Source: Alphaproteobacteria bacterium MarineAlpha3_Bin7
GTDB lineage: Bacteria > Pseudomonadota > Alphaproteobacteria > Rhodospirillales > UBA2165
Direction: 5' to 3'
DNA: 35,168 nt
NCBI GenBank assembly: GCA_002937995.1
Contig: PTLG01000008.1
Span: forward strand, 1 to 35,168
Part shown: one piece after another, positions 7,416 to 8,482 of the stretch
Layout of the letters: every line of letters starts with the position of its first letter
How positions within the stretch are numbered: position 1 is the first letter of the stretch
The notes under the pieces: model-generated
The model's input: only the letters and a program-made list of their open reading frames with translations
Database searches by the model: none
What the model was told of the DNA's origin: nothing
Program-made: the position numbers and the translations under genes

Positions 7416-8030
7416 CTAGCTTTCTTTTACAAGTTGCTCCAGCATTTCGTAGGGTTGGGCGCCTACTACTCCCCTACCCTTGTATACAAACGTCGGAACA
7501 CCAGTTACCCCATAGCTCCTCGATTTTTCCCAATCTTTATCTATTGCCTCAGAATAACTTCTACTATTAAGCACTTCGGATACTTCATCTACGGGAAGAC
7601 CGCATTGGGATGCAATATCTAGCAACACCTGATCTTCGCCAATATTTAGGCCTTCGACAAAATAAGCCCTATAAAGCCCCATATGTATTTCCTGATAGTC
7701 ATTCCCGTGGTTGAGCTGATCGTCTGCCCACTTTCCTATTTCTTGGGCCTTTCGACTATTGTAGGTGTGTGTCCTTTGTCCATATTCTAGACCCTCTGCC
7801 TCCGTAAGGGCTTTCATTCTCTGGAAGTTGCCATCTATGTCATAATCCCGGCCTCTAAATAATTCTTCAAGAGTGAGTCCAGAATCTGGCGTGTCTGGGT
7901 GCAGCGGAAAGTGAATTAATTCTACTTTCAAGTTATAATTTGTTTTCAGTTTTTCAATACGCCCGGTACAGAGATAACACCATGGTCAAACGTAATCACT
8001 GAAAATTTCTATCGTTTCCAAATCTGACAT
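7416..8030 (-). CDS. DsbA/FrnE-like thiol oxidoreductase, probable selenoprotein (in-frame UGA, UxxC active site)
   Basis: This is a thioredoxin-fold protein of the DsbA family, FrnE subgroup, 204 codons if UGA is decoded. Reading from the ATG at 8030 gives MSDLETIEIFSDYV, then TGA at 7988-7986, then PWCYLCTGRIEKL, continuing in the same frame to a TAG at 7416. FrnE relatives have CPWCYLG here, so UGA sits exactly on the nucleophilic Cys (position 15), with resolving Cys18. The cis-Pro loop GVTGVPTF is intact near residue 179, as are HFPLHPDTP and the helical insert. AGGAG lies 7 nt before the ATG, the best ribosome-binding site in the area. The stretch after the UGA alone has only a TTG and would lack the active site. 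Sec insertion is inferred. The rival reading is a nonsense mutation or sequencing error. Confidence 0.85.
7954..7972 (-). promoter_or_regulatory. Candidate bacterial SECIS hairpin after the in-frame UGA
   Basis: On the minus-strand transcript the stem pairs UCUGUAC with GUAUUGA around the loop CGGGC. It has four contiguous pairs below the loop (one G-U), a U-U mismatch, then two more pairs. The loop begins 21 nt after the UGA. Bacterial SECIS elements are expected about 16-37 nt downstream, with a G in the first two loop positions, and both conditions hold. The stem is modest and was folded by hand. Confidence 0.5.
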
Positions 8031-8068
8031 TTTAGACTCCTAGGGCAATAAGATGACATCTGATTGTG

Positions 8069-8158: not shown

Positions 8159-8482
8159 GTGTCAGTTCAGGAAACAATTGAGTTAAAAATAGTAGATGCC
8201 ATTAAGATCTCGGGTTTGGAGGTGTTGAATGAGAGCCACATGCATAATGTGCCTCCTGGTTCAGAGTCTCATTTTAAGGTCATTATTATTTCTGATGATT
8301 TTGTTGGTCAAAGTTTAGTTAAACGCCATCAAAAAATTAATGAGTTGTTGGCTTATGAACTTTCAAATGGCGTTCATGCTTTATCTATACAAGCAATGAC
8401 TGCAGAAGAATGGACTAAAAAAGGTGAAAAAGTCATGCCTTCACCAAAATGTTTAGGTGGGGGTAAGGGGGCAAGCCACTAG
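8159..8482 (+). CDS. bolA: BolA family protein
   Basis: BolA proteins pair with monothiol glutaredoxins in [2Fe-2S] handling and also affect morphology and stress responses. The 107-aa product has the class II KH-like BolA fold pattern: SHMHNVPPGSESHFKVIIIS, then VGQSLVKRHQKINELL, then NGVHALSIQAMTAEEW, with the invariant His in VHALSI. Start is GTG with GAGG 8 nt upstream. The usual partner glutaredoxin gene is not adjacent. Instead a divergent DsbA-like probable selenoprotein gene shares the upstream region. Residues after ~90, rich in Gly and Lys, are a variable tail. Confidence 0.9.
   Translation: MSVQETIELKIVDAIKISGLEVLNESHMHNVPPGSESHFKVIIISDDFVGQSLVKRHQKINELLAYELSNGVHALSIQAMTAEEWTKKGEKVMPSPKCLGGGKGASH

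Follow-up and report, generated by a model that had tools for sequence, protein, structure and literature searches.

A FrnE/DsbA-like gene with TGA at the first active-site cysteine: a probable selenoprotein gene in a Rhodospirillales-type alphaproteobacterium

A predicted FrnE/DsbA-like selenoprotein gene occupies positions 7416–8030 on the minus strand of the window, the 35,168-nucleotide stretch of alphaproteobacterial DNA analysed here. The frame runs from an ATG at 8030-8028 to a TAG at 7418-7416, and its sole interruption is a TGA at 7988-7986, codon 15, just as an earlier note on this DNA had claimed in placing a single TGA at the first Cys of a CPWC motif. Read as selenocysteine (Sec), as comparison of the TGA and Cys forms of the gene suggests, this codon would give a 204-aa product with U15 as the first residue of a UPWC motif, in the context FSDYV-U-PWCYL; the assignment of the gene draws on its frame, a Pfam match, conservation of the TGA and dN/dS. 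The codon of the resolving Cys18 is a TGT (7977–7979, minus strand), and the cis-Pro loop reads GVPTF (V178-P179). Under translation table 11 the locus contains only a 171-aa TTG-started fragment (7416-7931), the truncated annotation that had been foreseen.

A Shine-Dalgarno sequence, AGGAG (8037–8041, minus strand), precedes the ATG by 6 nt rather than the 7 nt given earlier. The extended -10 proposed further upstream corresponds to TGT-TATAAT at 8077-8069 on the same strand, a possible element that matches the consensus when read by eye and was not listed by a simple promoter scan. Divergently oriented, a BolA-like gene (8159–8482, plus strand) is identified by the Pfam BolA model and by its conservation as a neighbour. 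It also adjoins the DsbA-like gene in the three nearest Sec relatives, L003, G008 (L084) and G005 (L085), a pattern that suggests conserved adjacency only.

The 204-aa protein matches Pfam DSBA (PF01323) over residues 6-201 (E 1.1e-35; 123.6 bits against a curated cut-off of 25.6), and no NCBIfam model scores above its cut-off. Its best profile match is Deinococcus FrnE (E 3e-37). FrnE entries are also the top Foldseek matches of the predicted model (pLDDT 93), with a TM-score of 0.85-0.88 to FrnE of Deinococcus radiodurans. In a 34-sequence alignment the (C/U)PWC motif at 15-18, Cys18 and V178-P179 are invariant. The DsbA/FrnE fold is intact on both sides of the TGA, cis-Pro loop included, as originally described. 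No signal peptide is evident in the product, which is likely cytoplasmic.

Eighteen further genomes or loci have TGA at the same codon, with protein identities as low as about 51%. Among 41 genomes of the family and order, 17 others have a close homologue carrying exactly one TGA at about 54-65% identity (divided between two contigs in the case of G038), while two, G001 and G011, have a close homologue without it. Codon 15 is TGA in the window, in the Rhodospirillaceae MAG locus L003 (97% identical), in the SAR324 MAG locus L005 and in the 16 genomes for which the retrieved locus covers the codon; at this position the other GTDB homologues carry TGT or TGC. In a broader sample of the order, 37 of 199 genomes have a close homologue; TGA forms are confined to G025, G030, G038 and members of the window's family, and the remaining matches are free of stops. 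Both comparisons proposed in the earlier note, with related genomes and with aligned Cys homologues, came out in favour of Sec. Since the DSBA match spans residues 6-201 and the identical codon is TGA in 18 other sequences, its position is not due to chance.

The TGA form in the SAR324-labelled MAG (L005:5001-5600; about 57% identity) has a betaproteobacterial Cys form as its neighbour in the tree, and either horizontal transfer or mis-binning would account for it. Phage and plasmid collections contain homologues only below 60% identity, and so give no sign of a mobile origin.

The codons downstream of the TGA evolve under purifying selection. Between the window and L003, dS is 0.118 and dN 0.011 over the 187 codons after the TGA (dN/dS 0.10), and the other computable pairs give dN/dS of 0.09-0.18 for the codons after the TGA. 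A gene terminated at codon 15 would not show such selection.

A SECIS-like stem-loop lies at 7954–7972 on the minus strand, pairing 7972-7966 with 7960-7954 around a CGGGC loop at 7965-7961. In the family element, UCAGUAC-CGGGC-GUAUUGA, a 7-bp stem encloses a 5-nt loop, which begins 20 nt beyond the UGA. Over codons 19-28, synonymous-codon identity is 0.76 in the TGA forms versus 0.45 in the Cys forms; three later parts of the gene give 0.40, 0.43 and 0.39 in the TGA forms, whose most conserved 9-codon stretch in the whole gene begins at codon 19. The seven-pair stem is paired in 96.8% of alignment cells, against 27-46% in slid controls. Pair 21-31 changes from U-A to C-G in four sequences of one clade, and pair 19-33 from A-U to U-A in one sequence.

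The published bacterial SECIS model specifies a spacing of 16-37 nt, a loop of 3-9 nt and a G in its first two positions, and the stem-loop agrees with it in spacing (20 nt), loop size (CGGGC) and early G. The window's own copy carries a U·U mismatch at pair 19-33; its stem in isolation has -1.2 kcal/mol, and the local minimum free energy of -4.3 kcal/mol is worse than that of shuffled sequences. This copy falls short of the published search cut-off of -7.5 kcal/mol, which several relatives pass over the same 52 nt; the value is a search threshold, not a defining property, and some established SECIS elements fall short of it too. As the window copy folds weakly, assignment as a SECIS element draws on family conservation and not on the energy of the window sequence. 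Searched with the FrnE-family SECIS model, the host genome has no second convincing element (next best E 0.19).

The host genome, G000, is a 2.58-Mb MAG of 92.5% completeness and 1.8% contamination. It encodes selB (C203:3244-5133, 443.9 bits) and, adjacent to it, selA (C203:5166-6512, 571.4 bits), as well as selD on contig C200 (400.3 bits). Of the four genes the earlier note had proposed to look for, selC (tRNA-Sec) is the one missing from this assembly: the best match, at 44.2 bits, is a tRNA-Ser, searching the window and the selAB contig for tRNAs returned nothing, and tRNA-Sec was likewise not found in the assembly of the 97% relative. An enoyl-CoA hydratase-like gene (272-aa frame) has tRNA-Sec immediately upstream of it in G008; this gene is also next to tRNA-Sec in G002, G012 and G017 and lies about 1.7 kb from it in G007. 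In the host orthologue (C20:25-804, 58% identity), 18-19 nt separate the ATG from the end of the contig; in G008 there are several tens of nucleotides between the end of tRNA-Sec and the equivalent start. With the selC of relatives located farther out, the host site falls off the contig. Contig C203 also ends within a gene located between selB and selC in G007. The earlier note had named absence of selB and selC from the complete genome as grounds against a selenoprotein. Because selB is present, and the MAG is incomplete with its selC site beyond a contig end, this condition does not strictly apply.

At least one of selA, selB and selC occurs in 16 of the 18 TGA-form genomes, and at least one of selA-D in all 18; none of the four was found in either Cys-form genome, G001 or G011. 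This co-occurrence has a one-sided Fisher p of 0.03 for selA/B/C, a value based on small numbers and uncorrected for kinship. Apart from the host selC, all gaps in the sel genes belong to MAGs that are 57-89% complete. G001, which is reported as 100% complete, retains a SECIS-like sequence with broken pairs immediately behind its TGT (49.5 bits, E 3e-11). This sequence (L209, G001:C12:106808-106852) is likely a fossil of Sec-to-Cys replacement. A quick tree needs at least four Sec/Cys changes, two of them forced by starred branches; replacement of Sec by Cys together with loss of the machinery in the genus of G001 fits best, though the tree does not prove the direction.

The host SelD (L216, G000:C200:10800-12100) has Cys, encoded by TGC, in the motif HGGGCGCK, where all relatives read have TGA (HGGGUGCK). 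The formate dehydrogenase alpha subunit of the host (G000:C22:4283-6331) has no in-frame TGA and is presumably a Cys form, and no SelW-type selenoprotein (PF10262) was found in the host genome. One tentative and rather doubtful reading is that the lineage has a shrinking selenoproteome and retains the complete Sec machinery for a very small number of proteins, the FrnE-like enzyme among them. G001 would then represent the end state, with Cys in place of Sec, all sel genes lost and a decayed SECIS behind the Cys codon.

The gene could in principle be an ordinary CPWC gene spoiled at its first active-site Cys by a nonsense mutation or a sequencing error, as TGA is one base away from TGT and TGC and table 11 yields only the truncated TTG frame. 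This pseudogene reading is rejected: the same TGA recurs in 18 other separately assembled sequences diverged to about 51% protein identity, which already refutes it, the frame beyond is under purifying selection and synonymous positions shortly after the TGA show special conservation. A random nonsense mutation, which the earlier note had judged unlikely on the position of the TGA, retains a negligible probability. Still less credible is a general recoding of UGA to another amino acid such as Trp or Cys. No specific point favours it, while there is a single TGA, at a Cys site, the other window genes are normal table-11 frames, and both the sel genes and the SECIS-like conservation indicate Sec.

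It is also improbable, if somewhat less so, that a gene inherited as a selenoprotein gene now sits in a species that has lost selC, leaving UGA as a stop or misread codon. The lack of tRNA-Sec in the host MAG and the nearest genome would fit such a loss, as would the Cys form of the host SelD where all relatives read have TGA, the formate dehydrogenase without TGA and the mismatch in the window's SECIS stem. Against it, selA and selB lie side by side and intact, the selC neighbour stops at a contig edge at just the place where selC should lie, dN/dS relative to L003 is still 0.10 after the TGA, and G001 and G011, which are free of Sec, have Cys rather than TGA. Decoding of codon 15 as Sec is supported by the TGA/Cys pairing, purifying selection, the covarying SECIS-like element, the presence of selA, selB and selD, and the contig break at the selC site; the points against it are the tRNA-Sec missing from the host and 97%-relative assemblies and the weak window stem. 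The selenoprotein interpretation of the earlier note is upheld: judged from sequence, the gene at 7416-8030 is very probably an intact FrnE/DsbA-like selenoprotein gene with UGA 15 predicted to be decoded as Sec.

In this interpretation, a Rhodospirillales-type alphaproteobacterium carries an intact gene for a thiol-disulfide oxidoreductase of the DsbA-like FrnE subfamily. SelB and Sec-tRNA-Sec would decode the UGA, directed by the stem-loop just downstream. By analogy, Sec15 of UPWC would carry out the nucleophilic attack, with Cys18 as the resolving residue; this makes disulfide reduction or isomerisation the most likely activity. The FrnE of D. radiodurans has been studied as a disulfide reductase/isomerase and linked to cadmium and diamide tolerance (PMC8945050); most likely the predicted product would similarly reduce or isomerise disulfides in stress defence.

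FrnE of D. radiodurans (DR0659; PDB 5cnw, 5cp1) is the best match in both profile and fold. Its CPWC region aligns with the predicted selenoprotein, but it has Cys in place of Sec. It also has a C-terminal CXXXXC at 239-244 that is absent from the 204-aa protein; because FrnE of S. roseofulvus and D. maricopensis lack it too, this motif, though shared by many FrnE proteins, does not define FrnE.

UxxC DsbA-like selenoproteins are indeed known from marine bacteria, as the earlier note had stated. 'The microbial selenoproteome of the Sargasso Sea' (2005) described a DsbA-like selenoprotein of COG2761 with UXXC in nine sequences (PMC1088965), and COG2761 is the COG of frnE/DR0659 (PMC1978522). 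The present gene shares with it the COG, the UXXC motif, widespread Cys homologues and a predicted SECIS, a match by description only. Likewise by description, and not by the reference sequence NIP15863.1, it resembles the marine-enriched 'DsbA 1' family of the GOS survey (PMC2398784) and the 'DsbA-like protein form 1' of a 2026 review (PF01323, UxxC; PMC13188914). Given the 2005 description, this is not a new kind of selenoprotein; the gene is a well-supported further example with genome context, and one that standard gene calling would truncate. The family permits direct comparison of Sec with Cys forms, and of presence with loss of the Sec machinery. Whereas the Sargasso Sea set consisted of nine metagenomic sequences without host genomes, a type first seen in anonymous ocean sequences is now placed within a family-wide comparison and in a host genome that carries selAB and selD.
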